From Kiritimatiellia bacterium (lineage in GTDB: Bacteria > Verrucomicrobiota > Kiritimatiellia > RFP12 > UBA1067), in contig JAFRDO010000045.1 in NCBI GenBank assembly GCA_017403825.1, forward strand, positions 1 to 64,000: DNA of 64,000 nt. The letters run 5' to 3'. Of this stretch, positions 4,976 to 25,178 are shown piece after piece; the first letter of the stretch is position 1; each line of letters begins with the position of its first letter. Made by a program: the position numbers and the translations under genes. The notes under the pieces are model-generated. The model was not told the origin of the DNA and searched no databases. It saw nothing but the letters and a program-made list of their open reading frames with translations.

Positions 4976-6211
4976 TTACTTCAGCCTTCCCGTGTAGGCG
5001 TCGGCGCCGGTGTTGTCAATCATATGCTTGAAGAACTTGCCTGCAGCCTCTTCGCGGTCCTTGTTCCACGGACGCTTGCCGCCGCGCTCCTGCACCGCCC
5101 AGAGCTTGAGCTCCTTCTTGTGCCAGTTCACCATGCAGTTCGTGCCCCACGCGCCGCCGTGGCCGAACCAGGCGTCGTCGCCGTCCGTAACAGGCGCGGT
5201 AAGCCCGAGCGAGTAGCCGCCGAAGTCCTTGCCGTCCGCCGTCTTGCTCGTCGGACGCGTGGAGACGGCGAGAATCGACTTGACCGTCTCATCCTTCAGG
5301 ATCCTTACGCCGTTCTCGCCAACGCCGAGGTTCATCAGCATCTTGTAGAACTTGAGCTGGTCGCGCGCCGTAGTCCAGAGGCCCGCACCGGCGGACGAGA
5401 ACACGCGGTCGTCGTTGTACGGACGCTGCATCCAGTCGGCCTGCTCCTTCCACTGCGGAGGCTGACCGTCCTTGATGTCGTACAGCTCGATCTTCTTCGC
5501 AAGCTGCGAGTCAGTCGGCCAGAAGCCGGAATCCTTCATGCCCAGCGGATCGAGGACGCGCTCCTTAAGGAAATCCTCCCAGCGCTTTCCGGTCACTACC
5601 TCCACAACCGCCGCGCCAATGTCAATGCCGACGTTGGAATACTGGGCCTTCGTGCCCGGCTCGAACGCGATGGGCTGCGACGCGGCGGTCGCCGCCACGC
5701 TCCTAAGCGGCATCCTGCGCGACCACCCGCCCATGGCGATCCCGTTGGGAAGCTCGAACGGGAATCCGCCCGTGTGGTTCATGACCATGCGCACGGTGAG
5801 CTCGTTCTTCGCCTTGACGAGCGTCCTGCTGCCGTCCTCGTTCTTCTTCTCAACCCAAAGCTCCTTGAACTCGGGCAGGTACTTCGACACGGGATCGTCG
5901 AGGGTGATCTTGCCTTCCTCCACGAGTATGGCGATAGTCACACCGCAAAAACCCTTTGTCTGCGAGCACTGCATGTAGACGTCATCGAGTGTGATCGGAC
6001 GCTTCGCGCCGACGTCAGCATAGCCGATGCAGCACGTCTCCTGCACGCCGTCCTTGTAGAACACGTTCACCGCGCCAGGCAGCTCGCCGGAGTCGACGTA
6101 CTTCTGTAGCGCATCACGCGCGAACGCAGTCCCCGAATCCTTCGGACCATTGCAGGTGCAGCAGCCAGCAAGAGCGACCGCAAGACCAACCACAGACAAC
6201 AACCTCTTCAT
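4976..6211 (-). CDS. Serine beta-lactamase-like hydrolase, lipoprotein
   Basis: The 411-residue protein has a lipobox (ALAGC, Cys17) and the three motifs of class C beta-lactamase/esterase-like enzymes (Pfam Beta-lactamase): SxxK as SQTK (Ser83, Lys86), YxN as YSN, and HGG as GHGGAWG. Members of this group include penicillin-binding esterases and D-aminopeptidases, and true beta-lactamase activity is not implied. The start at 6211 has an AAAGGA ribosome site. A promoter with TATAAT lies about 40 nt upstream. It heads the operon that continues into ruvB. Confidence 0.88.
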
Positions 6212-6252
6212 TTCAATATTCCTTTCCCCGCGCTTGGCGGAATTTGCCGCAT

Positions 6253-11295: not shown

Positions 11296-11337
11296 TAAAT
11301 CCTTTCAAACGCAAAAGTATGTTGACATGATGCTTAA

Positions 11338-11343
11338 ATTCTA
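11338..11343 (-). promoter_or_regulatory. Possible -10 of the DUF4838 gene
   Basis: Minus-strand TAGAAT, leaving a leader of about 36 nt that carries GAAAGGA. It matches the consensus less well than the other promoters in the window. Confidence 0.35.
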
Positions 11344-11367
11344 CTACGCGGCGCGACGCCACGCAAG

Positions 11368-11383
11368 ACCTGTATAGACAGAT
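11368..11383. promoter_or_regulatory. Candidate operator in the divergent regulator/DUF4838 region
   Basis: ACCTGTATAGACAGAT is an imperfect palindrome (12 of 16 positions symmetric, core CTGT-N4-ACAG). It overlaps the -35 zone of the regulator's own promoter and lies just upstream of the divergent gene's promoter, where a GntR/LacI-type repressor would be expected to bind. Binding is inferred. Confidence 0.45.
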
Positions 11384-11398
11384 CAAGACGAAGTGTGA

Positions 11399-11404
11399 TA
11401 TAAT
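11399..11404 (+). promoter_or_regulatory. Near-leaderless promoter of the GntR/LacI regulator
   Basis: TGATATAAT; 8 nt separate the hexamer from the ATG at 11413. Confidence 0.65.
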
Positions 11405-11412
11405 CGCGTGGC

Positions 11413-12489
11413 ATGACTGGCAGGGAAATCCAAAAGCGGCTCTTGACGGACATCATGTCCGGCATGTATTCGGACACTGGCAAGCTTCCGAGCGAGTCTG
11501 CGCTTTCCGACGCATTCGGCGTGTCGCGCATGACGCTGCGCGGGGCGCTTGACGAACTGCGCAGGCAGGGTCTAATAGAGAAGCGCAACGGCTCCGGATC
11601 GTTCCTGACGAAACGCGGACTTCGCCGCAGCGGCCTCATCGGACTGGTCATTCCCGACTACGAGGCGTACAGCTTCTTCGCGGAGATCGAGAAAGAGGTC
11701 AAGCGTCATGCCTCGCGACTCGGCTACCACGTCAAGCTCGTCTTCACCAGCGAACGCAAGCATGAATCCATAGTGCGCGACATCAGGCACAAGGTACGCG
11801 CACTGGCCATAAACCGCGCTGAAGGCGCCATCTTCCGTCCGTTCGTCACCGAGGACCTCGCCGCGACGAACAAGGAGGTTGTGGACATCTTCAGCCACGC
11901 CGAGGTTCCGGTCGTCCTCATAGACTCGGACATCACCCGTCCGCCGGAACGCAGCGACTGCGACCTGGTGGCCGTCAACAACATCGGAGCGGGGCGCCAG
12001 ATCGCCGACCATCTCTACAGCCGCGGCTACAGGCGCATTGCGTTCCTCATGAGGAACAGGAACCCGTTCGCCAATGCGAACTGGGGCAACCGGCTCTTCG
12101 GCCTCGCCGGAGAGCTTGCGCTGATGGGCTGCGACGAGAGCGTCCGCCAGCTTGACTTTCCGCCGACCGACGAACGCGCCGTGCGTGCGCTCCTGCGGAG
12201 CCGCCGACGCCCGGACGCCATCGTCTGCGGCAACGACGAGCAGGCCTCCCTGCTTCTCGATACCATCGGACGCATCGGAAAGCGCGCGCCAAAGGACGTC
12301 GCCGTCGTCGGTTTCGACGACATCGCGCTCGCACGGGCCACACAACCTCCACTCACGACGATATCACAACCCGTGCGCAAGCTGGCCGCGACTGCGTTCA
12401 AGACGCTTCTCGCCCGCATCCGCTACCCAAACAACGACCCGCGCGAGATACTGCTCGACGCCCCGCTAGTCGTCCGCCGCTCTACATAG
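11413..12489 (+). CDS. Transcriptional regulator: GntR DNA-binding domain with LacI-type sensor
   Basis: The 358-residue protein joins an N-terminal winged helix of the GntR type (about 3-65; PSESALSDAFGVSRMTLRGAL) to a periplasmic-binding-protein-like sensor domain (about 72-355; GLVIPDYEAY, HLYSRGYRRIAFL, VVGFDDI, LTTISQP). This is the AraR-like architecture, in which a sugar or glycan fragment releases the repressor from DNA. It is transcribed away from the DUF4838 gene, with a shared 118-nt spacer that holds a palindrome, so control of that gene and of itself is likely. The start follows a -10 element by 8 nt and lacks a Shine-Dalgarno site. Confidence 0.9.
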   Translation: MTGREIQKRLLTDIMSGMYSDTGKLPSESALSDAFGVSRMTLRGALDELRRQGLIEKRNGSGSFLTKRGLRRSGLIGLVIPDYEAYSFFAEIEKEVKRHASRLGYHVKLVFTSERKHESIVRDIRHKVRALAINRAEGAIFRPFVTEDLAATNKEVVDIFSHAEVPVVLIDSDITRPPERSDCDLVAVNNIGAGRQIADHLYSRGYRRIAFLMRNRNPFANANWGNRLFGLAGELALMGCDESVRQLDFPPTDERAVRALLRSRRRPDAIVCGNDEQASLLLDTIGRIGKRAPKDVAVVGFDDIALARATQPPLTTISQPVRKLAATAFKTLLARIRYPNNDPREILLDAPLVVRRST

Positions 12490-13586: not shown

Positions 13587-14519
13587 TTATCCGAACTCAT
13601 CCAACCCACCGGCAGCGGGAGGGAGCAGGTCGAGGATACGCACATCGCCCATGTTCGGCTGCATGGGATCGGCATAGTAGCGAATGATCGTGCGAATGTC
13701 GTCGCCGGAGATGGAAGTCGCCATCTCGGCGCCGAACTTCTGGTAGACGTGATCAATGCAAATCTTGCGCAGCTCATACGCGCCCTTCGTGCCGACAAAG
13801 CCAATGCCACGCATGGCCCTGTTCACCTCGTCGAACGTGTGCCTGTCGCAACTGAACCAGCCGTCGCGCATCCGTTCCCAGAGAACCGGATGTATCGGCC
13901 ACTTCACCATGCGACCCGACGAGTGCTTCGTCTTATGCGGCGTGTAGTTAAGGAACATCCGTCCGCCGGACTCTATGAAGTTCTCGCGGCGAAGACGCAT
14001 GATGTCTCCGTTGCGCATGGCGAACTCCAGCATCATCGTCGCGGCAAACCAAAGGTTTCCGGACGGCAGCGACTGGTACCATGCCTTCACCTTCGCCAGC
14101 TGTTCGGAAGACGGACGCATGTATCGCGGCGCAGCACGGCGGCCGCAGAAGGACGGGAACGGCGGCACTTTCCAGCCCCGGTCTTCGTAGTAGGGGCGCA
14201 TCCACCTGGCGAAAAGCTGTCGCAGCTGATTGAGGTATGAAACCGCCGTAACCGGCCGGACTCCTGACTTCAGCAGGTCGGCCAGATATCGATGCACGAG
14301 CGGCGACTTGACAATTGACACAAGTGGGAAATCTTCGCCAGGCCCGATGCGCTCGTAACCAAGCTTTTCTCGCCGCTCGTTGAGATATCGCACGAACCGC
14401 CGAACGCCACAAAGGGTGTTCCTGACTGTCGATTTGCCGGGCCGACCGCATTTCAACCGCTCAACCATGGCGGATTCCACGTATGCCTTGACCATTCTGT
14501 TTAGTGTCGGTGTTGTCAT
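13587..14519 (-). CDS. Tyrosine recombinase/phage integrase family protein with degenerate active site
   Basis: The 310-residue protein has an N-terminal SAM-like core-binding region (about 5-110) and a C-terminal catalytic region. Visible catalytic elements are Arg169 (FAMRNGD), Lys198 (TKHSSG), Arg251 in AYELR and tyrosines 281/282 (IIRYYADP). The usual His of HxxR is Tyr248, and the second His position appears to be Asp. The start at 14519 follows GGAGG by 6 nt. This ribosome site lies against the 33-bp fragment of a cassette E gene, which places the recombinase at a rearrangement junction. It could be a decayed or specialised recombinase. Confidence 0.8.
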   Translation of the reverse strand: MTTPTLNRMVKAYVESAMVERLKCGRPGKSTVRNTLCGVRRFVRYLNERREKLGYERIGPGEDFPLVSIVKSPLVHRYLADLLKSGVRPVTAVSYLNQLRQLFARWMRPYYEDRGWKVPPFPSFCGRRAAPRYMRPSSEQLAKVKAWYQSLPSGNLWFAATMMLEFAMRNGDIMRLRRENFIESGGRMFLNYTPHKTKHSSGRMVKWPIHPVLWERMRDGWFSCDRHTFDEVNRAMRGIGFVGTKGAYELRKICIDHVYQKFGAEMATSISGDDIRTIIRYYADPMQPNMGDVRILDLLPPAAGGLDEFG

Positions 14520-14526
14520 CTTGAAC

Positions 14527-14559
14527 CTCCGCAAACTCGGCATCCGCCTCGTCCAGCTG
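14527..14559 (+). pseudogene. Remnant of a third cassette E gene (C-terminal 11 codons)
   Basis: These 33 bp match 19639-19671, the 3' end of cassette gene E, at 31 of 33 positions. They read LRKLGIRLVQL in frame, against LRNLGIRLVPL in the intact gene. Nothing upstream or downstream resembles E. The fragment lies between the start of the recombinase gene and the end of the ATPase gene, and shows that another cassette copy once stood here in plus orientation. Confidence 0.75.
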
Positions 14560-14563
14560 AGAG

Positions 14564-15856
14564 CTATCCTAATGCGGATTCGTCAAGCAGAAAGTCAAAC
14601 ACGCTCAAATTCAGTATCCCGGTCTCGTCAAACCATTTTCTTCCGACGTCATTTCGGACGATGATCTTGCGGAAACTGTCGCCGGTGAGCGAAAAAGGCT
14701 TGAGTTCCGCGAGCCGCTTCTCTTCGTCCGGCAACGCATATGCGGACTGGATGTAGAGCCTCTCACCAGCGCGGTTGACTACAAAATCAATCTCGCGCTG
14801 GACCCTGACGTTCTTTCCGAGAGAGTTCCGCTCGTTGGCGACAACCACCCCAACGTCCACACTGTATCCGCGCATCACAAGTTCGTTGAATATCAAGTTC
14901 TCCATGATATGAGTCGCCTCCTGATGGCGAAATCCCGTACGGGCGTTGCGCAACCCGACGTCTTCGCAATAGTATTTCTGCGGATAGTCAAAATAGGCGT
15001 GACCCTTCACATCGTAACGCTTCGCTTCTGTAAAAAGATAGGCGTCTTCGAGATGATCGATGTACGCAGCAACAGTGTTTACGCTTGCGCCAGAGCCTTG
15101 AGACCTGGCAAGTGATTTCGCGATGTTATTGGCGTTGGTGAGAGAACCAGTAGAAGAGCACAAGAAGTCAATCGTCTGGGACATAACGTCCGGGTGATCA
15201 ATCTTCTTCCGTTCGACGATGTCCTTTATGTAAACCTCGTCGAACAGGCCCTTCAAGTACGCTTCGCGGCTTGCATCGTCCGCACACGTCACGGCAAACG
15301 GCATGCCTCCGTATCTCATGTAGTCTTCAAGCGCATCGCGCCTGTCCTTCCTGAAGGTACTTAAATACTCGGCGAATGAGAGTGGATGCACCCTAACCTC
15401 GTCCCCGCGTCCGCGGAATTCCGTCTTTATGTCTTTCGACAGCATCTTTGAATTAGAACCCGTCACATATACGTCGAGATTTGGCATCGAACGGAACTCG
15501 TTGAGCGCATCGTAGAACGTTATCTTGGTGCCACCGGGCAAGGCAGGATTTGGAACTTCGCCGCACATTTGGATTTCGTCTATGAAAAGGTAGCGTCGCG
15601 TCAACGATCCCGCCATCCAATCGCGGACGAATTGCCCCAACACGAGGGGATTGCGGTATTGCGCGAATCGAAGTTCATCAAGTTCCAGAATGAGTATGTC
15701 CTCCCCCTTGGTGCCATTGTCAAGAAGACACCGTCGAAACAGCGTCTTGAGCAGGAAAGACTTTCCAGAACGCCTTATACCAGTTATAACTTTAACCTGC
15801 CCGTTCCACATCTTTGAAACGAGTCTGTTAAGATACACATCTCTTTTAATCTCCAT
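14564..15856 (-). CDS. ATP-binding protein of the AAA_14/DUF4143 family
   Basis: The 430-residue protein has Walker A GIRRSGKS (26-33), a Walker B-like segment YLFIDEIQ, sensor VTGSNSKML, and a C-terminal DUF4143 region (about 220-400) whose EIDFVV and following residues look like a PD-(D/E)XK nuclease core. Members are abundant, often multi-copy, in gut anaerobes; some are linked to defence or mobile elements, but no function is established. The ATG at 15856 follows AGGGGAG by 6 nt; a TTG two codons upstream is also possible. It lies between a fragment of cassette gene E and a 5'-disrupted cassette gene A, so it probably inserted there. Confidence 0.85.
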   Translation of the reverse strand: MEIKRDVYLNRLVSKMWNGQVKVITGIRRSGKSFLLKTLFRRCLLDNGTKGEDILILELDELRFAQYRNPLVLGQFVRDWMAGSLTRRYLFIDEIQMCGEVPNPALPGGTKITFYDALNEFRSMPNLDVYVTGSNSKMLSKDIKTEFRGRGDEVRVHPLSFAEYLSTFRKDRRDALEDYMRYGGMPFAVTCADDASREAYLKGLFDEVYIKDIVERKKIDHPDVMSQTIDFLCSSTGSLTNANNIAKSLARSQGSGASVNTVAAYIDHLEDAYLFTEAKRYDVKGHAYFDYPQKYYCEDVGLRNARTGFRHQEATHIMENLIFNELVMRGYSVDVGVVVANERNSLGKNVRVQREIDFVVNRAGERLYIQSAYALPDEEKRLAELKPFSLTGDSFRKIIVRNDVGRKWFDETGILNLSVFDFLLDESALG

Positions 15857-15906
15857 ATCCAACTCCCCTCTCTCAACTTATGCGGCATTCCGCAGAAGTT
15901 TTCAGT

Positions 15907-15912
15907 ATTATA
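15907..15912 (-). promoter_or_regulatory. Extended -10 promoter of the DUF4143 ATPase gene
   Basis: Minus-strand TGCTATAAT; the leader of about 45 nt contains a short inverted repeat (TGCGGAATGCCGCA) followed by AGGGGAG. Confidence 0.55.
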
Positions 15913-15961
15913 GCAAAGGTCTTCCATATCAGTCAACCCGTTGACAAGATATTAGCTAACG

Positions 15962-16756
15962 ATGTCAATTTTGTGCGGAATGCCAATGAATTTATGCTGT
16001 TTTCCCTGTAAATCACACAGCGCGGCAGTGAGCTTTGGCGCTGCGCTGACGTCGGCCAACACGGTTGGTTACGCGTCGAACCAGTTGGATGATGACTATG
16101 GTTCGGTGTTGCTGACACCTCAGTTTGTCGGCGTTGCGAATGCGGGCGGTCTTACCCTTGGAAACATCAGACCCGTCTCTTCCTCTGATGAATATACCGT
16201 TGGTGACGGAGATGTCGACATCCAGTTCCTTGACAATGGCGGCTACACCATTGAAGACAAGTGGTTTGTCTGGGATGGTGCGAAGTGGGTGTATATGAAT
16301 GGCGGTGCGGATGCCTCGTCCTTCGTGATTCCTGTTGGTGCTGGTGTTTCCGTTGCCTGCGGCGTTGATCCTGATGATGCAATTATTACCCTCCAGAGTC
16401 TCGGTGAAGTTGCAACATCCGATACCCTCATCAGCCTTGACGAGGATTATGGCTCGGTAATTGCCGGCAACCCGTATCCTGTTTCTCGCACCCTTGGTCA
16501 GTTCGCTCTTGAAGTGAATGAGGGAAGCGACTATGAGATTGGTGACGGAGATGTCGACATCCAGTTCCTTGACAATGGCGGCTACACCATTGAAGACAAG
16601 TGGTTTGTCTGGGATGGTGCGAAGTGGGTGTATATGAATGGCGGCGCTGATGCAAGTAGTTTTGAGATTAAGTCAGGTGAGGCAGTTTCTGTCGCGTGCG
16701 GTGTTGATCCTGATGATGCGATCGTAACGCTTCGCATTCCTGCTCCGGCGCTTTAA
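15962..16756 (+). CDS. Cassette gene A, plus copy: repeat surface protein with disrupted 5' end
   Basis: From about base 16016 the product matches the minus-strand A protein (AAVSFG, LTSANTVGY, LDxDxGxV), but the first ~15 residues of that protein, its signal peptide core, are missing. The ATG at 15962 opens an unrelated lead-in (MSILCGMPM). The rest has two ~110-residue modules containing DIQFLDNGGYTIEDKWFVWD and GxVSVACGVDPDDAI, ending in IPAPAL like its paralogue. The modules share a perfect 106-bp DNA repeat. No good promoter or ribosome site is visible before 15962. The intact relative is probably exported to the cell surface; this copy may be silent or cytoplasmic. Confidence 0.65.
   Translation: MSILCGMPMNLCCFPCKSHSAAVSFGAALTSANTVGYASNQLDDDYGSVLLTPQFVGVANAGGLTLGNIRPVSSSDEYTVGDGDVDIQFLDNGGYTIEDKWFVWDGAKWVYMNGGADASSFVIPVGAGVSVACGVDPDDAIITLQSLGEVATSDTLISLDEDYGSVIAGNPYPVSRTLGQFALEVNEGSDYEIGDGDVDIQFLDNGGYTIEDKWFVWDGAKWVYMNGGADASSFEIKSGEAVSVACGVDPDDAIVTLRIPAPAL
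16200..16305 (+). repeat. 106-bp direct repeat, copy 1, inside gene A (plus)
   Basis: Identical to 16539-16644. It begins TTGGTGACGGAGATGTCGAC and encodes the core of one repeat module. Perfect DNA identity means recent duplication or gene conversion. Confidence 0.95.
16539..16644 (+). repeat. 106-bp direct repeat, copy 2, inside gene A (plus)
   Basis: Identical to 16200-16305 and in the same frame, 339 bp (113 codons) downstream. Confidence 0.95.
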
Positions 16757-16770
16757 TGATTTACCTTGTG

Positions 16771-16787
16771 AGCGGCGATGGGTCGCT
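16771..16787 (+). promoter_or_regulatory. Intercistronic hairpin between A and B (plus copy)
   Basis: AGCGGC-GATGG-GTCGCT forms a 6-bp stem. A longer hairpin sits at the same place, with a similar GGGTCGC right arm, in the minus copy (23535-23559). The conserved position suggests a role in mRNA processing or stability. Confidence 0.45.
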
Positions 16788-16819
16788 TGCAAATAAAAAC
16801 AAAACAAAAGGAAAAAACA

Positions 16820-17263
16820 ATGAAGAAAATGCTCATAATTTTGGGTGCAGTTGCAATGACGACTGTTGCTCAAGCCGCATCGTTCAAGTGGACTGCAAGC
16901 GGTGTGACAGATGCCCTCGGCACTAATCCGTATAATGGTGCTGCGACGATATTCTTCTCCGTCAAGGACGCTGACAACTGGTCTGTTGCGACTGCTGCGA
17001 CTATGACCGACGGCGCGTTTGACGTGACGCTCGCAGACGACAAGTTTGTTGGCAACACCACGTACTCCTTCTATTATACGATGGAAGATGCGTCCGGCAA
17101 TAAGTTCACGTCCGGCATTAAGAACAAGAAGGCTGCTGCTACTGCAACGCAGTCTGTTGCATTTTCAAGTTCAGGTTCGTGGGAGGTGGTTCCTGAGCCT
17201 ACAAGCGGGATGTTGATGTTTCTCGGCTTGGCTGGGCTTGCGCTCCGCCGTCGTCGCGCCTAA
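16820..17263 (+). CDS. Cassette gene B, plus copy: PEP-CTERM surface protein
   Basis: The 147-residue protein has a signal peptide (MKKMLIILGAV, cleavage near AQAAS), a small beta-rich domain with FKWTASGV, TNPYNGAA and FYYTMEDASGNKF, and the C-terminal PEP-CTERM sorting signal: PEPTSGMLM, a hydrophobic helix and the tail RRRRA. Such proteins are cut and anchored or released by an exosortase; no exosortase is in the window. The ATG at 16820 follows AAAGGA. Its homologue is at 23068-23508. A strong hairpin follows, so B may be made in excess over C-D-E. Confidence 0.93.
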   Translation: MKKMLIILGAVAMTTVAQAASFKWTASGVTDALGTNPYNGAATIFFSVKDADNWSVATAATMTDGAFDVTLADDKFVGNTTYSFYYTMEDASGNKFTSGIKNKKAAATATQSVAFSSSGSWEVVPEPTSGMLMFLGLAGLALRRRRA

Positions 17264-17340: not shown

Positions 17341-18183
17341 ATGGCTTGGAATCAGCCAAACAATAGCAAAAACCTCATACAGAGACGACAAAGCTCAAAG
17401 CGTCATTACGGGGGCATTGCGTTTTTCGCGATCGCAGCAACACTCTTAATGGCATTTGTGTTCTTTGCGGCAAAGCGGGAATCGGGGAAGAACGGGGAAA
17501 TGGCAGAGGCAGAAAAGCCAAAGAGAATCGCGGAGGTTGCACCGACAGTCGTAGCCCAGAAGGTTGAAGTCAGGGATGAAGAAGTAAAAGTAGACCCCGA
17601 TGCGCGTCCGACAAAACCAGGACAGAAACTGAACGGCTATGTCATGCTGCCGAACGGGGAACTTCACAAGATCAGGGGTGAAATATACTCGAACGCCAAT
17701 CGTGAGAAGCCGAAGTATGCAGTATTCAAGTATCCGGCGGAGAACATAATCGCAGGGATATTGGCGGTGAAGCCTGGATCGATGGTTGTGGGAAACGCGA
17801 GAGATTACAGGGGAAAGTTTATTGAAAGCTTTAACAAGAGTTTATTCGAACCAATAATCGTTAATGAGGACGATTCGGAGTATGTGAAAGAAATCAAAAA
17901 CTCTGTAGTGGCGGCCAAGAAGGAACTCAAGGCTGCGATGGATAGGGGTGAAGATATAGAAAAGATTATAAAAGAATCGCGCGATGAGCTTCAGCGTCTT
18001 GCATCCTATAAAAAGGACATAAGGCGGGATGTGCTTCAATATCTGAACAAGGAAGCGGCAAGCGTGGAGGATGCTGAAGATATGTTCTCGGCTGCCAACA
18101 AGATGCTTGAAGCGAAGGGAATCACTCCACTTGCGGATGGTCCGCTCGTAAGAATCAAACTTAAAATGACGCATGACATGTAA
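17341..18183 (+). CDS. Cassette gene C, plus copy: single-pass membrane protein with periplasmic coil domain
   Basis: The 280-residue protein has a basic N-terminal tail, one membrane helix (about 25-43, IAFFAIAATLLMAFVFF), a Pro/Lys-rich linker, and an extracytoplasmic domain. That domain holds GYVMLPNGELHKIRG, the segment FKYPAENIIAGILAVKPG, then a helical region with EIKNSVVAAKKELKAAMDRG. The minus-strand homologue (22138-22980) has the same length and motifs. The segment with AENIIAG...KPG and the helical part also resemble the periplasmic part of gene E, so C and E probably share a domain. AAAGGA precedes the ATG. I know no function. Confidence 0.85.
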   Translation: MAWNQPNNSKNLIQRRQSSKRHYGGIAFFAIAATLLMAFVFFAAKRESGKNGEMAEAEKPKRIAEVAPTVVAQKVEVRDEEVKVDPDARPTKPGQKLNGYVMLPNGELHKIRGEIYSNANREKPKYAVFKYPAENIIAGILAVKPGSMVVGNARDYRGKFIESFNKSLFEPIIVNEDDSEYVKEIKNSVVAAKKELKAAMDRGEDIEKIIKESRDELQRLASYKKDIRRDVLQYLNKEAASVEDAEDMFSAANKMLEAKGITPLADGPLVRIKLKMTHDM

Positions 18184-18199
18184 GGAAAGGATTATGCAG

Positions 18200-18925
18200 A
18201 TGAAGAAGTCGGTATGTTTAATTGTCATTGCAAGTGCGCTAGCAGGAATGGCGAACAACGCGCTTCCCGATGATGAAGGGCTGCGTCGCACCGGTGGAAG
18301 CATTGAAAAACCGGGTTCGCAGAAAGGCGAGATTGTTTACGTCAATTGCCAGGGAGCGGCGAAAGCGGAATGGATTGCATCAAGTATTGATTATTTCACA
18401 AAGCAGACAAAATTTAAGATAACGCTTCGCGATGGCGAGTTCTCTTGGCCGAGTCCGAAGATACATGGATCGCTCTCGCTGTTTATTGTAGATGACGAAG
18501 GGTTGCCGACGATACTGTGTGCGCCAGAGAACCGCTGGGCAGTGGTAAATGTTGCGCCATTGAAGTCGGGAAAGGAAGCGTTCTTTGAAGCGCGAATCAA
18601 GAAAGAGCTGACAAGAGGTTTCGCGTATCTGTGTGGTGCGGCAAACTCAAGGTACCCAAATGCACTGACTGGTGGAATTACAAGTGTCGATATGATTGAT
18701 AAGATTACAGACGCAAGGCTTCCCGCCGATGTCATAGAAAGATTCCGGAAGTATGTCGAGAGCTTTGGAGTAACACCCATCCGGTATACGGCATATATCA
18801 ACGCATGCAGACAGGGCTGGGCCCCGCCTCCGACGAACGATTACCAAAAGGCGATTTGGGACAAGGTACATGCCATTCCCGCGAAGCCCATGAAGATCGA
18901 GTTCGACCCGAAGAAGGGGCGGTGA
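18200..18925 (+). CDS. Cassette gene D, plus copy: secreted protein, possibly an inactive zincin
   Basis: The 241-residue protein has a signal peptide (MKKSVCLIVIASALAG). Conserved with its paralogue are KPGxQxGE, WIxxSxxYF, GSLSLFxVDD, RWAVVNV, and the C-terminal PTNxYQKAIWDKVHA. The order VDD...RWAVVNV...RIKKELTRGFAYLCG recalls archaemetzincins (M54), where HExxHxxGxxH follows the KE; here the metal-binding His residues are absent. That link is my inference from pattern alone. The start at 18200 is preferred because GGAAAGG lies 9 nt upstream; an ATG at 18194 is also in frame. Its stop overlaps the E start. Confidence 0.8.
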   Translation: MKKSVCLIVIASALAGMANNALPDDEGLRRTGGSIEKPGSQKGEIVYVNCQGAAKAEWIASSIDYFTKQTKFKITLRDGEFSWPSPKIHGSLSLFIVDDEGLPTILCAPENRWAVVNVAPLKSGKEAFFEARIKKELTRGFAYLCGAANSRYPNALTGGITSVDMIDKITDARLPADVIERFRKYVESFGVTPIRYTAYINACRQGWAPPPTNDYQKAIWDKVHAIPAKPMKIEFDPKKGR

Positions 18926-19680
18926 AGTACACCTACGCATACAAGACGAGCGACGGCAAGCGGCACGAGGCGTCAATGGACGCGGCGAGCCGCGAAGCCG
19001 TCTTCGAGACTCTGCGCAAGGAGGGAATAAGACCAATCAAGGTCGTCGCCGCTGACGGCAGCAAGGCAAACGGGGAAATCTCAGCCATAAAGAATACAAA
19101 GTCCGTTGTCTTTGGAGCGGTTGTCGTTTCGATTTTGGTGCTGCTCTTTGCGATCTATACGTTTTTTGCGACAAGAAATCAAGTTCCCGAAATGCCCCGA
19201 TTCGTTGCCGAGCAGACGCGGCGTCAGATGATCGGCGACTCGGCGGTCATAGACAAGGGCATAGCGACCGGCTGGAGCGACGTGTTCCCGGAAGAGGGCG
19301 AGAGGTTCTTCGCCAGCTTCGCCATCCCAGGCGTCAAGGCCGGACAACGCAACACGACTGTTGCGGAACTCGAAGCCGCGCTCGGCCGTTCAGTTGCCGC
19401 GACGCCTTCCGACGGCATGGAGGCGCGGCAGATAAAGTCGATGGTCGAGGGCATGAAGGCCGAGGCGCGGGCATATGTCAAGGCCGGAGGCAACATCATC
19501 GAGTACGGCAAGCGCCTCACCGAGCGGCAGGACGCGGAGATCGCAATCTACGAGCGGACCAAGGGGGAAATCGAACGTGCCCGCGAAACAATGTCGCACG
19601 ACGACTTCCTCGCCTTCTGGGAGGAGCGCAACGACCAGCTCCGCAACCTCGGCATCCGCCTCGTCCCGCTGGAAGAGTAG
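18922..19680 (+). CDS. Cassette gene E, plus copy: membrane protein with GspF/PilC-like N-terminal domain
   Basis: The 252-residue protein starts at GTG 18922, overlapping the D stop (GTGA); the paralogue starts at the equivalent ATG. Residues 1-45 (YTYAYKTSDGKRHEAS, AVFETLRKEGIRPIKV) resemble the cytoplasmic N-terminal domain of GspF/PilC assembly proteins. A membrane helix follows (about 57-78), then an extracytoplasmic domain with FPEEGERFFASFAIPG and a helical part (QIKSMVEGMKAEARAYVKAG, YERTKGEIERA) that resembles protein C. The homologue is 20601-21365. The function is unknown; a role with C in an envelope complex is inferred. Confidence 0.82.
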   Translation: MKYTYAYKTSDGKRHEASMDAASREAVFETLRKEGIRPIKVVAADGSKANGEISAIKNTKSVVFGAVVVSILVLLFAIYTFFATRNQVPEMPRFVAEQTRRQMIGDSAVIDKGIATGWSDVFPEEGERFFASFAIPGVKAGQRNTTVAELEAALGRSVAATPSDGMEARQIKSMVEGMKAEARAYVKAGGNIIEYGKRLTERQDAEIAIYERTKGEIERARETMSHDDFLAFWEERNDQLRNLGIRLVPLEE

Positions 19681-19713
19681 AAGCTACCACATTTGAATTA
19701 AATGTGGTAGCTT
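19681..19713. terminator. Perfect 14-bp inverted repeat between convergent genes
   Basis: AAGCTACCACATTT and AAATGTGGTAGCTT flank the loop GAATT. It starts right after the E stop codon and precedes the end of the convergent PIN toxin gene, so it can act as a terminator in both directions, although U-runs are weak. Confidence 0.7.
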
Positions 19714-19723
19714 ATCACGAAAT

Positions 19724-20122
19724 CTAAATCCCCACGATGTCGCAGAACTGTGTGGGGTTGACAACGAAATCCGCCCTCGGGTAGTGTTTCATGTTGCCCG
19801 TGACAAGATGCGCGTCACCGGCAAAGGCCGTGCAGTAGAAAACCTTGTCCTTTGGATCGGGGAAGGGCGCATCAATGTCCGCAGGTTCCGCCAACTCACC
19901 ATATGCAACGATGTGGTTGATAAGGGCATTCACTTCTTCTGCTGAAAAGTTGAACCTTGTGCGAGACAACACCTCTCGGTATTCGGAAATCATTTCAGGA
20001 GAATACACTGGCGTAAAGCCATCATGTGCTATCGCATTGGCAATCCTTACGGTGGGCGAGAGCCGGTTTCTCGTCCAGAATGCGGACACAAGTACATTCG
20101 TATCAATGACCGCCTTGATCAT
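19724..20122 (-). CDS. PIN-domain toxin of a toxin-antitoxin pair
   Basis: The 132-residue protein matches the COG1569-type PIN family. It has the N-terminal acidic residue in AVIDTNVLVSA (Asp7), a Glu-rich centre (SPEMISEYREVL) and later acids in FPDPKDKVFY and a closing TGNMKHYP. PIN toxins are Mg-dependent RNases that stall translation when the antitoxin is lost. The ATG overlaps the stop of the upstream RelB-like gene (ATGA, 20119-20122), the usual order for these pairs. It lies in the spacer between the two oppositely oriented cassettes. Confidence 0.88.
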   Translation of the reverse strand: MIKAVIDTNVLVSAFWTRNRLSPTVRIANAIAHDGFTPVYSPEMISEYREVLSRTRFNFSAEEVNALINHIVAYGELAEPADIDAPFPDPKDKVFYCTAFAGDAHLVTGNMKHYPRADFVVNPTQFCDIVGI

Positions 20123-20436
20123 CCCTTGTGCCCAACAGATTGACGTGAGGATTGCTGACTGTTGCGAACCGATGAAATAAAATCATTGATTTCATCCATT
20201 GACGGCTCTTCGGCATCGGTAGCTTCAACCTTTGCCCTCATTGACTCAAACGCCGATATTGCCGCATTGTCGCGCATCTGTACCCTGCCATCGAACGGCA
20301 GCCCCCCAACCATAACGCTCTTCTTGAAGAACATACGTATGGCTGTCGGCAAATCTAGGCCGATAGCATTATAAATTGACGCGGTCTGCTCTTTCAGATC
20401 CCGGTCAACCCTAACTTGTACTAGTATCTGGTTCAT
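20119..20436 (-). CDS. RelB/DinJ-type antitoxin
   Basis: The 105-residue protein begins with a ribbon-helix-helix-like region (VQVRVDRDLKEQTASIYNAIGLDLPTAIRMF, about 5-38) characteristic of RelB/DinJ, followed by FDGRV and an acidic C-terminal tail that should bind the toxin. It would neutralise the PIN toxin and repress their shared promoter. GAGGTTGT precedes the ATG. RelB-type antitoxins usually pair with RelE/YafQ; pairing with a PIN toxin is a common recombination of modules. Confidence 0.88.
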   Translation of the reverse strand: MNQILVQVRVDRDLKEQTASIYNAIGLDLPTAIRMFFKKSVMVGGLPFDGRVQMRDNAAISAFESMRAKVEATDAEEPSMDEINDFISSVRNSQQSSRQSVGHKG

Positions 20437-20600: not shown

Positions 20601-21365
20601 CTATTCGTTAGAGTTCGGGATGGTACGGATACCGAGGCGGCGAAGCGCGTCATTTTTCTGTTCCCAAACCTCATCAGACGTCTCATTCTCAAGCTCGCGG
20701 CGTGTACGCTCGTAAATCTGTATCTCGGTTACCGTACGTTCGGTGAGCCGCCGCCAGTAAGAGCGTGGAGTCCCATTTCCATTGTCGAGGTACTCTCGCA
20801 TCTCTTCTCGCATCCCGTTCACAATCTGTTTGAGTTCTCGTACCTCTCGGCAGTCGGATTCTTCTATCTTCAAGTCTCCAGAAGAAGCCAGCTCGTCTCG
20901 CACATAATTGACAAACTTCTCCAACTCTACCGGTGAGAGGTGCTTCCAATCGACGTTTTTTGCACACATGACTTCTCCCGGTTGGGCAAAGCGCGCGAGC
21001 AATCTGTCCCCCTCGCGCTTTAACGCTCTTTCGAAATCGCCGTGCTCAAAGCCTGTTATTATTGCCGGATCGCCGTATATCTGGTGGCGCGGGGAGGAGA
21101 CGGGTTCGATGGAGGAGCGCGAGCCGTCGAAGTAGGCAACTATGGCTGCTGCGGCTATCGCGGCGAGCAGCACAAGGGCCGCCACGGCGCGCTTACGGAC
21201 TCCCCGTACCTCACCATTGGCCTTCGAGCCATCGGCGGCAACAACCTTGATTGGGCGTATGCCCTTCGCCCGCAGAGCCTCGAAGACGGCCTCACGGCTC
21301 GCGGCACTCATCGACGCCTCGTGCCGCGCGCCGTCGCTCGTCTTGTAGGCGTAGGTGAACCTCAT
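20601..21365 (-). CDS. Cassette gene E, minus copy: membrane protein with GspF/PilC-like N-terminal domain
   Basis: The 254-residue protein begins FTYAYKTSDGARHEAS, with AVFEALRAKGIRPIKV ending the cytoplasmic domain near residue 46. A membrane helix (AVAALVLLAAIAAAAIVAYF) follows. The extracytoplasmic part has ALKREGDRLLARFAQPGE, then VRELKQIVNGMREEMREYLD and IYERTRREL, and ends LRRLGIRTIPNSNE. Compared with the plus copy, the N-terminal 50 residues are nearly identical, while the periplasmic half has diverged strongly. That points to purifying selection, or gene conversion, on the cytoplasmic domain. It lies 17 nt after D and ends the operon. Confidence 0.82.
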   Translation of the reverse strand: MRFTYAYKTSDGARHEASMSAASREAVFEALRAKGIRPIKVVAADGSKANGEVRGVRKRAVAALVLLAAIAAAAIVAYFDGSRSSIEPVSSPRHQIYGDPAIITGFEHGDFERALKREGDRLLARFAQPGEVMCAKNVDWKHLSPVELEKFVNYVRDELASSGDLKIEESDCREVRELKQIVNGMREEMREYLDNGNGTPRSYWRRLTERTVTEIQIYERTRRELENETSDEVWEQKNDALRRLGIRTIPNSNE

Positions 21366-21382: not shown

Positions 21383-22141
21383 CTAGTCGCTGGCTTTCTT
21401 AGTTTCCGGCTTGATCTTGATCGGCTCAGTCGGCATCGCGTGCACCTTGTCCCAGATCGCCTTCTGGTACTCGTTCGTCGGCGCGGGAGCCCAGCCCTGC
21501 TGGCAGGCGTTGCGGTACGTCGTTATCACGGCGGGCGTGACGCCGAACGCCTTCGCGTAGGCCGGGAGGCGCGACAGAACGTCCATCGGCAGCGACGGGT
21601 CGACGAACGCGTCAAGGTCCTCGACCTTGGCGACGGCTCCCGGAAGAGCCTGCGGGAACGTGGTGGCGAACGCGCCGCAGAGTATTGCGAACGCCCGCGA
21701 TAGCTCCTTCTGCACGCGCGCCTTGAAGAACGGCGGCTTGTCGCTCCTCAGCTTCGCCACGTTAATGAGCGCCCAGCGGTCGTCTGGTGCGGCCAGCATC
21801 GTCGGCAGGACCGCGTCGTCCACGACGAAAAGCGAGAGCGACCCCTTGACCTGCGGCTTCATGACGTCGAACCCGCCCTGCGACAACGTGACGTTGAAGC
21901 GGGAGCATTTCGAAAAGTATGCGACACTCTCCTCGATCCAGGCCCTGTCAGCCGACTTCTGGCAGTCGACGACAGCGACCTCACCGCGCTGTGTCCCAGG
22001 CTTGGCCAGGCGGCCACCAGTGATTGCCATTATGCGCTCGTGCCTGGCGGCCTGCTTGTCCGCGGCATCCTTCGCCGCGTCGGCACCGCATGCAGCGGCC
22101 GCGCACGCCGCAAACACCGCTGCGAGAACCGTGTTCCTCAT
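21383..22141 (-). CDS. Cassette gene D, minus copy: secreted protein, possibly an inactive zincin
   Basis: The 252-residue protein has a signal peptide (VLAAVFAACAAAACGAD; a lipoprotein-type Cys is possible). It keeps the family marks GSLSLFVVDD, RWALINVAKL, ARVQKELSRAFAILCG and PTNEYQKAIWDKVHAMP. Relative to archaemetzincin-like zincins, the place expected for HExxH reads KELSR, so no zinc site is present in either copy. Its ATG overlaps the C stop by 4 nt. Compared with the plus copy, codons are much more GC-rich, in line with the rest of the window, whereas the plus copy is more AT-rich. Confidence 0.8.
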   Translation of the reverse strand: MRNTVLAAVFAACAAAACGADAAKDAADKQAARHERIMAITGGRLAKPGTQRGEVAVVDCQKSADRAWIEESVAYFSKCSRFNVTLSQGGFDVMKPQVKGSLSLFVVDDAVLPTMLAAPDDRWALINVAKLRSDKPPFFKARVQKELSRAFAILCGAFATTFPQALPGAVAKVEDLDAFVDPSLPMDVLSRLPAYAKAFGVTPAVITTYRNACQQGWAPAPTNEYQKAIWDKVHAMPTEPIKIKPETKKASD

Positions 22142-22980
22142 TCCTTGTCCTCCCTGTGCAGGTTCATCTTAAGCTTGAGGCCAGTCAGCCAGTTCTTCTT
22201 GATCGGCGCTATGCCCTTGGCCTCGAGGAGCATGTTCGCCGCGGCGATGTAGTCGTCGACGTCCTGGTCCGTTATCCCCTCGGTCTTGTGCGTGAACTGG
22301 TAGATGTCGGCCTTCAGCTCCTGCTTGTACCGCGACATCTTCTGCAGCTCCTCGCGGGCCTTCAGCAGCATCTCCTCGATGTCCTCGCCGCGGTCGTACG
22401 CGGCCTTCATCTCGATCTTGGCCTCGTTGACGGCGCGCTTGAGCTGCTGTATGTCCTCGGGGTCGTCCTGGCTGACGATTATCGGCTCCTTTAGGCTCTC
22501 CAGGAAGTTCTTAGTGAACCTCCCGTTGTAGCGGGGCGTGCCGACGAACGCCTCGCCCGGCTTTGCCACCAGGAGTCCGGCAATCACGTTCTCGCTCGGG
22601 TGCGGGAAGATGGAGCTCCAGGCGCGCTCCGCCTTGTTCGTGATTATCCCCCTTACCGGGTGGAGCCGACCGGACTGCAGCAGCATCTTGCCGTCGCGGA
22701 TCTCGCCGACCTTTTGAGGCGGCAGTTCCTTGGGGGCCTCGGGCTCCGCCTTCGGCTTGGTCTGCGCCGCAGGCGCCTCGGCTATCTTCTTGGGCTTGCC
22801 CCTCGGCTCGTCGGGGGGAGCCTCCCTCCCTCCGCGAAGAAGGAGAAAGACGGCAACCGCGCCGATGACGACCAACGCCGCCGCAATGGCGCCCTTCACC
22901 AGCGGGCTTGCAGGCCCGCGACGGCTCGCCTGCGGCACTCGCGCCGCAGATCCCTTGCTTCCGCTACCGTTCCAGGACAT
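22138..22980 (-). CDS. Cassette gene C, minus copy: single-pass membrane protein with periplasmic coil domain
   Basis: The 280-residue protein has a Ser/Arg-rich tail, a membrane helix (about 28-48, VKGAIAAALVVIGAVAVFLL), a Pro/Lys/Glu linker (50-90), and the shared domain: SGRLHPVRG, FPHPSENVIAGLLVAKPG, EPIIVSQDD, AKIEMKAAYDRGEDIEEM and a closing LEAKGIAPI. The length equals the plus copy exactly. GGAGAC precedes the ATG, right after the hairpin at 23007-23035. The function is unknown. Confidence 0.85.
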   Translation of the reverse strand: MSWNGSGSKGSAARVPQASRRGPASPLVKGAIAAALVVIGAVAVFLLLRGGREAPPDEPRGKPKKIAEAPAAQTKPKAEPEAPKELPPQKVGEIRDGKMLLQSGRLHPVRGIITNKAERAWSSIFPHPSENVIAGLLVAKPGEAFVGTPRYNGRFTKNFLESLKEPIIVSQDDPEDIQQLKRAVNEAKIEMKAAYDRGEDIEEMLLKAREELQKMSRYKQELKADIYQFTHKTEGITDQDVDDYIAAANMLLEAKGIAPIKKNWLTGLKLKMNLHREDKE

Positions 22981-23006
22981 CGAGTCTCCTTCCCCTTGTA
23001 AACAGA

Positions 23007-23035
23007 AAGCCCGCCCGCGCGATGCGGACGGGCTT
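23007..23035 (-). terminator. Hairpin after B (minus copy), probable partial terminator
   Basis: On the minus strand AAGCCCGTCCGC pairs with GCGGGCGGGCTT (12 bp, one G-T pair) around a 5-nt loop. Arms and position match the plus-copy hairpin at 17288-17319. Confidence 0.75.
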
Positions 23036-23067
23036 CCCTGTCGTCAACCTCGGTTGACCGCCTTCGT

Positions 23068-23508
23068 TCAGGCCCTCCTGCGGCGGAGTGCGAGACCCGC
23101 CATGCCGAGAAGCATTAGCAGCCCGCTCGTAGGCTCCGGAGCAACCGTCCACTCGCCACCAGAACCAAAACCTAACGGGACAGTAGCAGTAGCCTGCGCT
23201 CTTGCTGACTTCTCGCTAGACTTGAAGGTGTTGCCAGCATCATCTTCCATCGTGTAATAGAAGGTATACGCAGTGCCGGCAGCAAGATCGTCATTGCTGA
23301 AAGTAGTGTTCGGAACTGCGCCATTTGACATGTTCGCCGTGCTTACAACGGTGGCAGTGCCATCGATGATTGCATACAGCGTTGCAGCGCCGCTATACGG
23401 ATTAGTGCCTGTGGCGTCATTTACACCAGAGGCGTTCCACCTCCAGGCGGACGCCTGCGAGCAAGTCGCCATGAGCGCGACTGTCGCAAGAATCAGTAGT
23501 TTCTTCAT
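23068..23508 (-). CDS. Cassette gene B, minus copy: PEP-CTERM surface protein
   Basis: The 146-residue protein has a signal peptide (ATVALMATCSQAS), the domain marks WRWNASGVNDATGTNPYSGAA and FYYTMEDDAGNTF, and the sorting tail PEPTSGLLMLLG...RRRRA. It is clearly homologous to 16820-17263 along its whole length. AAGGAAAC lies before the ATG. Export and exosortase processing at the cell surface are expected from the family; the enzyme is not in this window. Confidence 0.93.
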   Translation of the reverse strand: MKKLLILATVALMATCSQASAWRWNASGVNDATGTNPYSGAATLYAIIDGTATVVSTANMSNGAVPNTTFSNDDLAAGTAYTFYYTMEDDAGNTFKSSEKSARAQATATVPLGFGSGGEWTVAPEPTSGLLMLLGMAGLALRRRRA

Positions 23509-23534
23509 TTTAGTTTCCTTTTTTTTCTTACATT

Positions 23535-23559
23535 GGCGGGCGACCCTTTGCCGCCCACC
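23535..23559 (-). promoter_or_regulatory. Intercistronic hairpin between A and B (minus copy)
   Basis: GGTGGGCGGC pairs with GTCGCCCGCC (10 bp including G-T pairs) around AAAGG, directly upstream of the B ribosome site. It is equivalent in place to 16771-16787. Confidence 0.5.
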
Positions 23560-23575
23560 CTGTAAATGTCATTTA

Positions 23576-24298
23576 TCAGAGCTCAGGCGCCGGGATATGG
23601 AGACCGACGGCCGCGCCCGTAAAGTTGTACACCCAAAGACCCTTGCCTGGAGCAAAGGTAACGTTGGTAGCGGGATCGCCATTTGCATCCTCCCAGCCCG
23701 AACCAGTCCATATGTAGTCCTCGTCTCCAGTGCCGCCCCAGTTGTTCAGCGTCTGGATGTCAATGCTATAGCCCAAATCAGAAGCGGAGAGAGACGTGAT
23801 GAACGTTATGTCGGCAAGCGCGATATCGGTTGGATACGGATTCACGATGGCGACAGCACCAAGATCCTCATCAAGAGGATAGGTCACGTCGCTGGCGTTG
23901 ACTTCACCGAGAGACCGGAAAGTAACGGCCGCGCCCGTAAAGTTGTAGACCCAGAAGCCCTTACCAGCAGGCAAGGTGGCGTCTGTAACGGCATCGCCAT
24001 TTGCATCCTCCCAGCCCGAACCAGTCCATATATAGTCCTCGTCTCCAGTGCCGCCCCAGTTGTTCAGCGTCTGGATGTCAATGCTATAGCCCAAATCGGC
24101 CTCTGAGACAAGAACAATGTTGGTGAGGAGGAACGCCGAGCCACCGGGGGTCACGAACTGCGGACCAGTCAAAACCGCACCCAAGTCTTCGTCAAGCGCG
24201 CTGCCGTTGTAGCCAACCGTGTTGGCCGACGTCAGACCAATGCCAAAGCTCACTGCCGCGCAGAGTGCCGCAGAGGCTGCAATCATTAACTTTTTCAT
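23576..24298 (-). CDS. Cassette gene A, minus copy: repeat surface protein
   Basis: The 240-residue protein has a signal peptide (MKKLMIAASAALCAAVSFG), then LTSANTVGYNG and two modules. Each module holds YSIDIQTLNNWGGTGDEDY, IWTGSGWEDANGD and GKGxWVYNFTGAAV. It ends IPAPEL with no PEP-CTERM or other anchor. The modules look like small beta-rich surface domains; binding partners are unknown. AAGGA precedes the ATG at 24298. A ~98-nt structured leader and an extended -10 promoter lie upstream, so this gene starts the A-B-C-D-E operon. Confidence 0.8.
   Translation of the reverse strand: MKKLMIAASAALCAAVSFGIGLTSANTVGYNGSALDEDLGAVLTGPQFVTPGGSAFLLTNIVLVSEADLGYSIDIQTLNNWGGTGDEDYIWTGSGWEDANGDAVTDATLPAGKGFWVYNFTGAAVTFRSLGEVNASDVTYPLDEDLGAVAIVNPYPTDIALADITFITSLSASDLGYSIDIQTLNNWGGTGDEDYIWTGSGWEDANGDPATNVTFAPGKGLWVYNFTGAAVGLHIPAPEL
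23675..23779 (-). repeat. 105-bp direct repeat, copy 2, inside gene A (minus)
   Basis: It matches 23993-24097 with one mismatch and encodes the core of the second module. Confidence 0.9.
23993..24097 (-). repeat. 105-bp direct repeat, copy 1, inside gene A (minus)
   Basis: It matches 23675-23779 with one mismatch and lies in the same frame, 318 bp (106 codons) apart. Confidence 0.9.
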
Positions 24299-24396
24299 GT
24301 TTTCCTTCTTTCTGGCACAACCCAGTGTGCCTTCGAGTTTTTCGCCTGACACAGCTGATCCACCCGGCACTCGCCGGAGACCTTCTATGCCTGACA
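24299..24396 (-). promoter_or_regulatory. Structured 5' leader of the minus cassette operon
   Basis: The predicted ~98-nt leader holds two clean hairpins: CCGGC-GAGT-GCCGG (24377-24364) and GGCACA-CTGGGT-TGTGCC (24331-24314). The octamer TGTCAGGC occurs twice. I cannot match it to a known riboswitch. It may regulate translation or stabilise an abundant mRNA. Confidence 0.45.
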
Positions 24397-24402
24397 CTGC
24401 GT

Positions 24403-24453: not shown

Positions 24454-24774
24454 TCATTCCCAACCATTAGCCAAAACAGAGTCGGCGTTACGGCGGCAGT
24501 AGAGAATTCTGCCGACAGAAACAACTCCATCCTTCGGTAGATAGTACACGCAGAAGTTGCCAACGTCCATAACGCGAATGCCGCGTGATGACAGCGGCTC
24601 TCGCGGGTATGGTCGGAAACGCTCTGGCATTTCATCAAGCGTCGCTATCTGAGCTAAGATGCGGCGAAGGATATTGCGGGCGTTTTCGGGCGAGCTCAAC
24701 TCGAACGCGATGTAGGAGTAGATGTCGCGCAAATCCTCGTGCGCGGCATCTGAGACATCGACAAGCCAACTCAC
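24454..24774 (-). CDS. RelE/ParE family toxin
   Basis: The 106-residue protein fits the family length and pattern: DAAHEDLRDIYSYIAFEL at the N-terminus, MPERFRPYPREP in the middle, and the strand pair FCVYYLPKDGVVSVGRILYCRRNAD at the end. RelE members cut mRNA on ribosomes and ParE members poison gyrase; the sequence does not settle which. Its ATG overlaps the antitoxin stop (ATGA). It lies just beyond the A gene of the minus cassette. Confidence 0.88.
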   Translation of the reverse strand: MSWLVDVSDAAHEDLRDIYSYIAFELSSPENARNILRRILAQIATLDEMPERFRPYPREPLSSRGIRVMDVGNFCVYYLPKDGVVSVGRILYCRRNADSVLANGWE

Positions 24775-25075
24775 AGCGAGAACTCCTGCGCGAGGCTGGC
24801 GGCAACTTCCTTGAGAGGACGCTTGCGCCCAGCAGCGATGTCGTCGAAGCCACGCGACACTTCGGCATCAAGTTCCGCGTCGGTCATCATCGCGGCGTTT
24901 GGGAGTAGTCTCGCGGGGAATTGGACGGCAAATGGCAAGCCGCGATGAATAACGATTTGACGGTAGAACATATTGATGGCGTTTGACACGGGGACACCAA
25001 GCCCGCCGAGTATCGTCTCCGCCTCTTTTTTCAGTTCTGGCTCTATTCTCGCGTAGAGGTTTGCAGTCTTAACCA
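24771..25075 (-). CDS. RelB/DinJ-type antitoxin
   Basis: The 101-residue protein begins KTANLYARIEPELKKEAETILGGLGVPVSNAINMFYRQ, described here in two parts because it spans the ribbon-helix-helix region (residues 3-40). The acidic C-terminus should bind the toxin. The start at 25075 is chosen over a longer frame because GGAGAAAG lies before it and a promoter sits only ~20 nt upstream of that site. Confidence 0.85.
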
Positions 25076-25101
25076 TAGTCTTTCTCCGTTTGATGGCAGA
25101 T

Positions 25102-25107
25102 ATTTTA
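25102..25107 (-). promoter_or_regulatory. Extended -10 promoter of the ParE/RelB pair
   Basis: Minus-strand TGGTAAAAT with a short leader carrying GGAGAAAG. It decides the antitoxin start at 25075. Confidence 0.6.
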
Positions 25108-25178
25108 CCATAATTACCGCCCAGCCGCAATACGGTGTCCGTACGACAGCAATACGGGGGAGTGGGATGAGGGAAAAA

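Follow-up and report, generated by a model that had tools for sequence, protein, structure and literature searches.

A probable remnant of a third surface-protein cassette between a recombinase and an ATPase gene in a rumen Kiritimatiellia bacterium

Overview

Positions 14527-14559 (plus strand) of the DNA studied here carry 11 codons from the 3'-end of an E-family gene, without that gene's last 9 bases, and these 33 bases are probably the residue of an E gene from a third S-PEP-A-B-E operon copy that was deleted after an ATPase gene had landed between two copies. The window (the whole stretch of 64,000 nucleotides that was analyzed) is contig 16 of the 3.9 Mb metagenome-assembled genome G000 of an uncultured rumen bacterium. 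It was compared with 61 genomes of the genus, a set that includes ruminant-gut genomes labelled as Kiritimatiellae, Lentisphaerae or Verrucomicrobia.

Identity and uniqueness of the 33-base match

The segment 14527-14559 (CTCCGCAAACTCGGCATCCGCCTCGTCCAGCTG) and the end of the plus E gene at 19639-19671 (CTCCGCAACCTCGGCATCCGCCTCGTCCCGCTG) are identical at 31 of 33 positions; the alignment is ungapped, on the same strand and in frame, with the fragment reading LRKLGIRLVQL and its counterpart LRNLGIRLVPL. A 301-base query found only two places in the whole 3.9 Mb genome, the second with an E value of 3.0e-7. The best 33-mer match to the E gene in eight dinucleotide-shuffled 37 kb stretches reached 23-26 of 33 bases. 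Searching the 61 genus genomes with up to three mismatches returned only the fragment, its counterpart in the plus E gene and, in G019, the end of that genome's E gene; the reversed pattern gave zero matches in the same genomes. Given this E value, the ceiling of 26 bases in the shuffled sequences and the rarity of the pattern, the match is neither due to chance nor a dispersed repeat. The earlier note had named recurrence of the same 33 bp in unrelated contexts as the observation that would speak against its reading, and none was seen in the 61 genomes.

Several other observations of the earlier note were borne out as well. There are only two full E genes in the G000 genome, and the nearest intact one lies at least 4.4 kb from the fragment, far from it as had been claimed. 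The Shine-Dalgarno-like GGAGG of the recombinase gene (14526-14530, minus strand) overlaps the match by four of its five bases, and the stop codon of the ATPase gene (14564-14566) is separated from it by four bases (14560-14563).

A C-terminal LRxLG(I/L) motif is kept in nearly all of 58 E genes and is present in frame in the fragment. The K and Q at its two differing positions also occur there in other intact E proteins, which fits an origin from a separate paralogue. The fragment is 94% identical to the plus E gene (E+); where a genome has a second E+ copy, the identity is 88-90% over the gene, and 30 (G058) and 31 (G015) of the same 33 bases are shared. Between genomes, 28% or more of the residues of E+ proteins differ, the nearest being only ~70-74% identical. 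Hence, an identity of 31 in 33 bases, like that of the within-genome pairs, fits a second E+ copy of the same genome. The fragment is not a complete reading frame, as it has 11 codons, no start and no E stop codon.

Arrangement of the S-PEP-A-B-E operon

The operon comprises five genes in the order S (secreted, with internal repeats), PEP (a PEP-CTERM protein), A, B and E, of which A and E are distant paralogues. The window contains a plus and a minus copy of this operon that face each other with their E genes. The plus copy comprises a 5'-truncated S+ gene (16014-16756), the PEP-CTERM gene (16778-17263; PF07589 at 3.3e-6), A (17341-18183), B (18173-18925) and the intact E+ (18922-19680). The minus copy begins next to the spacer with the intact E- (20601-21365), behind which lie B, A, PEP and S (21383-24397). 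A RelB-like antitoxin and PIN toxin pair (19724-20436, minus strand; PF13470, PF04221) occupies the spacer between the two E genes. Directly 3' of the E+ stop codon, a hairpin with a 14-bp stem (19681-19713) is possibly a terminator, and two genes directly upstream of the minus S gene (24454-25130), whose sequences look RelE/ParE-like and RelB-like, are likely a toxin-antitoxin pair.

The E family is present in 52 of the 61 genomes. A structure search for E gave no significant fold match, and the literature searched yielded no paper on the paired five-gene operon or on PEP-CTERM proteins in Kiritimatiellae. Maps of ~75 loci reveal three types of junction: convergent E-E junctions, divergent S-S or Rec-S junctions, and direct tandems, where the S gene of the next operon comes after E in the same orientation. 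The convergent junctions either contain cargo or are empty; the latter was found twice in G058, with the stop codons a few bases apart. Direct tandems occur in G078, G009, G018, G008, G089, G090 and others. On contig 12 of G078, a recombinase gene (Rec) on the minus strand is followed by a complete S-PEP-A-B-E cassette and then by a 5'-truncated S, both on the plus strand. In G009, the order is Rec, A, B, E of the E+ type, S2, with Rec on the other strand than in G078 and a DUF3800 gene as cargo in the E-S gap.

A convergent ATPase gene stands shortly behind an E 3'-end in L122 (~150 bp) and L142 (~200 bp). L142 also harbors an E gene (11308-11441) with a large internal deletion that joins two GGCATCCGC repeats and leaves ~37 first and ~nine last codons, and partial E 3'-ends are found in G002 and L157; loss of the body of an E gene with retention of its ends thus occurs elsewhere. 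Outer inverted repeats that would mark the double operon as an invertible unit were not convincingly detected in the loci examined. This surface-protein locus rearranges rapidly, and the gene cluster is often rearranged in the genus.

Other elements were seen at these loci. L130 (2536-3915; also L129 and L131) has a different, Pfam-recognizable phage-type integrase between an E end and the next S. Long palindromes with a common GGTCTGACC center occur in L085 (7 copies, e.g., 6178-6230) and L083 (13112-13164, 14283-14335); they lie near genes with features of RAYT-type transposases, and each L085 E+ reading frame contains one.

The recombinase and the ATPase module

The Rec gene of the window (13587-14519, minus strand) lacks a Pfam match; its product matches the PHROG integrase family phrog_1 (1e-9), and its AlphaFold model (mean pLDDT 74) matches the folds of Cre, lambda Int, XerH, IntI and P2 Int. 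IntI (2a3v) is one of many such fold matches, and no PDB chain matches by sequence at an E value of 0.1. Residues R169, K196, R251 and Y281/Y282 are invariant in 12 Rec homologues, in which a Tyr replaces the usual His three residues before the second Arg. Judged by the modelled fold and the conserved R, K, R and Y, Rec is a divergent tyrosine recombinase. Its start codon (14519-14517) was placed by homology to G009; an in-frame ATG also exists upstream at 14543.

In G001, G009, G016, G021, G028, G029, G070, G073, G078, G084 and G088, Rec homologues border immediately on S or A at the edge of the operon; in G065 the homologue is 5 kb from S, and in G085 it is just upstream of an E/A-family gene. 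G089 and G064, in which Rec lies away from operons, and some contig ends are exceptions. Since about a dozen genomes have Rec at the operon edge, it appears to be a normal resident there and is probably not an intruder at the locus studied here. An attI-like site beside Rec was considered and ruled out, as no E-like sequence was found in the upstream regions of 11 other Rec homologues.

The ATPase gene (AAA_14 and DUF4143 domains by Pfam; 14564-15862, minus strand) reads towards Rec. A 44-base gap that contains the E fragment separates its stop codon from the Rec start on the same strand, and Rec could be co-transcribed with it. The GGAGG is well placed as the predicted ribosome-binding site of Rec, most of which the fragment would supply. 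The nearest homologues of the ATPase (G002, G029, G060, G067; 73-79% identical) are encoded by single modules in unrelated surroundings, and DNA similarity between the genomes is limited to the module, extending from ~15915 to near the stop codon. These properties identify the ATPase as mobile cargo that looks inserted. Its promoter region is assigned to 15863-16013, up to ~15915 of which is similar to the G002 and G029 modules. Two operator-like TGCGGAATGCC/TGCGGCATTCCGCA motifs lie upstream of the gene (15880-15990), and similar ones before the G002 and G029 homologues suggest a shared operator.

On the right-hand side, the junction of the insert is at ~16014, where the similarity between S+ and S- begins; the open frame extends from 15962 to 16756, and S+ is devoid of the start and signal-peptide codons that S- has. 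The left-hand end of the insert lies four bases from the E fragment. The idea that the fragment is the end of an inserted Rec-ATPase unit was rejected: there are Rec homologues next to S or A that lack this ATPase, and the ATPase homologues occur apart from Rec.

Short copies of E 3'-ends in other genomes

Solo coding pieces of E genes come almost only from the 3'-end, and short E 3'-end copies abut inserted genes in four other lineages in which no cassette is missing. In G029, the E- end recurs two bases after the hicA stop codon (5356-5404) and one base after that of parE (6075-6123), and an inverted copy stands immediately behind the E+ stop (8143-8107). Cargo and copies are the same in G065. 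The 1.67 kb toxin-antitoxin spacers of these two genomes (L083:4803-6469 in G029; L181:4301-5974 in G065) are 95% identical but lie in opposite orientations relative to the E genes on both sides, and the breakpoints fall within 37-bp inverted copies of the E- end; in both genomes, E-end copies occur in this spacer only and nowhere else. In G021, 56 bp of the E+ end form the end of hipA; in G001, such an end follows an AbiE-like gene; and in L122, an E+ end copy follows the E- stop. The boundaries of the copies vary on the left from -24 to -150 and on the right from -9 to +60.

Between the closely related genomes G029 and G065, the spacer, the E genes and the Rec region are 90-95% identical, whereas the alignment of S, PEP, A and the larger part of B is confined to gene ends (the S 5'-end, the PEP-CTERM tail, the B 3'-end and the E 5'-end), with almost no DNA similarity elsewhere. 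These conserved ends with unlike gene bodies indicate that the operons diverge or are swapped between conserved end pieces. From the sequence comparison, S-PEP-A-B in these genomes appears to be a hypervariable surface-protein locus with conserved end islands.

Origin of the fragment

The order found in the window, namely Rec (minus), E end (plus), ATPase (minus) and truncated S (plus), is the layout of G078 minus the first cassette except for the last codons of its E, plus cargo in the E-S gap, and this supports the reading of the fragment as a remnant. We envision an ancestral order of Rec (minus), S1-PEP1-A1-B1-E1 (plus), S2-PEP2-A2-B2-E2 (plus), the spacer, and E-B-A-PEP-S (minus). The AAA/DUF4143 module would have inserted between E1 and S2, in an orientation convergent with E1, and its two junctions would have cost E1 its last 9 bases and S2 its promoter, start codon and signal codons. 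A later deletion, either illegitimate or made by Rec, would then have fused the LR codons close to the 3'-end of E1 to a point on the 5' side of Rec, 7 bases ahead of the Rec start codon. S1 to E1 would thereby have been lost, except for the last 11 codons remaining of E1, which would now sit in the 44-base ATPase-Rec leader and furnish most of the Rec ribosome-binding site. No extended homology is visible at this joint, and the order of events cannot be fixed from 33 bp alone.

The earlier note had proposed that tandem cassettes once stood here and that insertion of the recombinase and ATPase genes removed most of one copy. The tandem arrangement gains support from direct tandems in relatives, with G078 showing the same order with respect to Rec, and the insertion of the ATPase from its homologues in unrelated places; insertion of the recombinase is not supported, as Rec normally resides at the operon edge. 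Comparison with related strains, which the note had recommended, uncovered tandem layouts, but the collections searched contained no near relative with an intact or an empty version of the locus, so the deletion itself is something that we infer. An empty-site reading through the synteny of a guaA-like neighbor was discarded, as relatives keep the 3' side of this gene and their 5' sides do not match the window. Further points against the remnant reading are that nothing of S1, PEP1, A1 or B1 remains at the locus, and that the E of G078 is of the E- type whereas the fragment is of the E+ type.

Copies of E 3'-ends beside intact E genes, in lineages without a third cassette, mean that a remnant is not the sole route to such a piece. 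The fragment might be a junction scar in that insertion of cargo at an E 3'-end duplicates a short E-end copy, the ATPase having come from an E spacer carrying one, and a third cassette never existed. The copies that abut HicA, ParE and the E+ stop (G029/G065), HipA (G021), the AbiE-like gene (G001) and the E- stop (L122) favor this, as does the near-exclusive origin of solo copies from the 3'-end and their confinement to one spacer in G029 and G065. In those cases, however, the copy lies behind the stop codon of the cargo with the same orientation as the cargo, and the spacer also contains an intact E; here the copy is convergent with the ATPase, abuts the 5'-end of Rec on its left side and is more than 4 kb away from the nearest intact E. 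We regard this scenario as unlikely. That GC-rich sequence upstream of Rec came to resemble LRxLGIR codons by chance or convergence is scarcely credible: the GC content of the region is high and the opposite strand could be the one that is read, but the E value of 3e-7, shuffled matches of only 23-26 of 33 bases, the reading frame and the occurrence of the differing residues in natural E proteins all oppose it.

A further explanation is that the adjacent Rec would use E 3'-ends as recombination sites to insert, invert and delete surface-protein operons as well as ATPase or toxin-antitoxin cargo, in a cassette exchange of rumen Kiritimatiellae that would resemble integrons or shufflons without being related to integrons, the fragment being one such site beside Rec. 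Rec is a tyrosine recombinase that usually lies beside the operons; the genomes with E-end copies (G000, G029, G065, G021, G001, G084) all carry Rec homologues, and G058, with its empty E-E pairs, has no detected Rec. The G029/G065 spacer inversion and three left ends that lie within a few bases of the LRxLG codons also agree with it. Yet the copies differ in where they begin and end, E-like sites are missing upstream of other Rec genes, Rec is also found away from operons, and the inversion across 37-bp repeats, the one shufflon-type case seen, could also have come about by homologous recombination. Raised conservation of synonymous sites at the E 3'-end, considered as a sign of a DNA site, was not clearly found (0.50 versus 0.35-0.54 elsewhere). 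Around 11 E ends or E-end copies, the attC core motifs RYYYAAC and GTTRRRY were absent up to a distance of 120 bp. This explanation has, in our view, a low probability, and the residue of a deleted third cassette remains the reading that we prefer.

Relation to known systems and biological meaning

Taken alone, the fragment is a relic of turnover in a gene cluster and ordinary in kind. It resembles truncated gene remnants, i.e., pseudogene fragments from the deletion of tandem clusters, in being a short in-frame paralogue end that abuts an insertion and whose gene body is gone; it is unlike them in that it seems to be reused in the predicted ribosome-binding site of the recombinase gene. With integrons (IntI, attI and attC gene cassettes), the locus shares a tyrosine recombinase at its edge and, in related genomes, toxin-antitoxin or other cargo units that are each followed by a repeated element; however, attC cores are missing near the copies, Rec is not recognizably IntI by sequence, and the repeat boundaries vary. 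Surface-protein operons in inverted pairs with a recombinase alongside, and one spacer inversion between related species, recall shufflons and invertible surface-protein loci, but no fixed short recombination site was found and the inverted segment carries cargo instead of alternative surface-protein ends. The PEP-CTERM tail (PF07589) of one operon gene is that of PEP-CTERM/exosortase surface proteins, although the literature searched offered no description of a paired operon of five genes that includes A, B and E.

The data suggest that this PEP-CTERM surface locus formerly comprised three or more cassettes and that their copy number changes by deletion. They also suggest that the ends of E genes recur as breakpoints across the genus. 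If Rec is the driver of these changes, it would give uncultured rumen bacteria a hitherto undescribed means of exchanging surface-protein operons.
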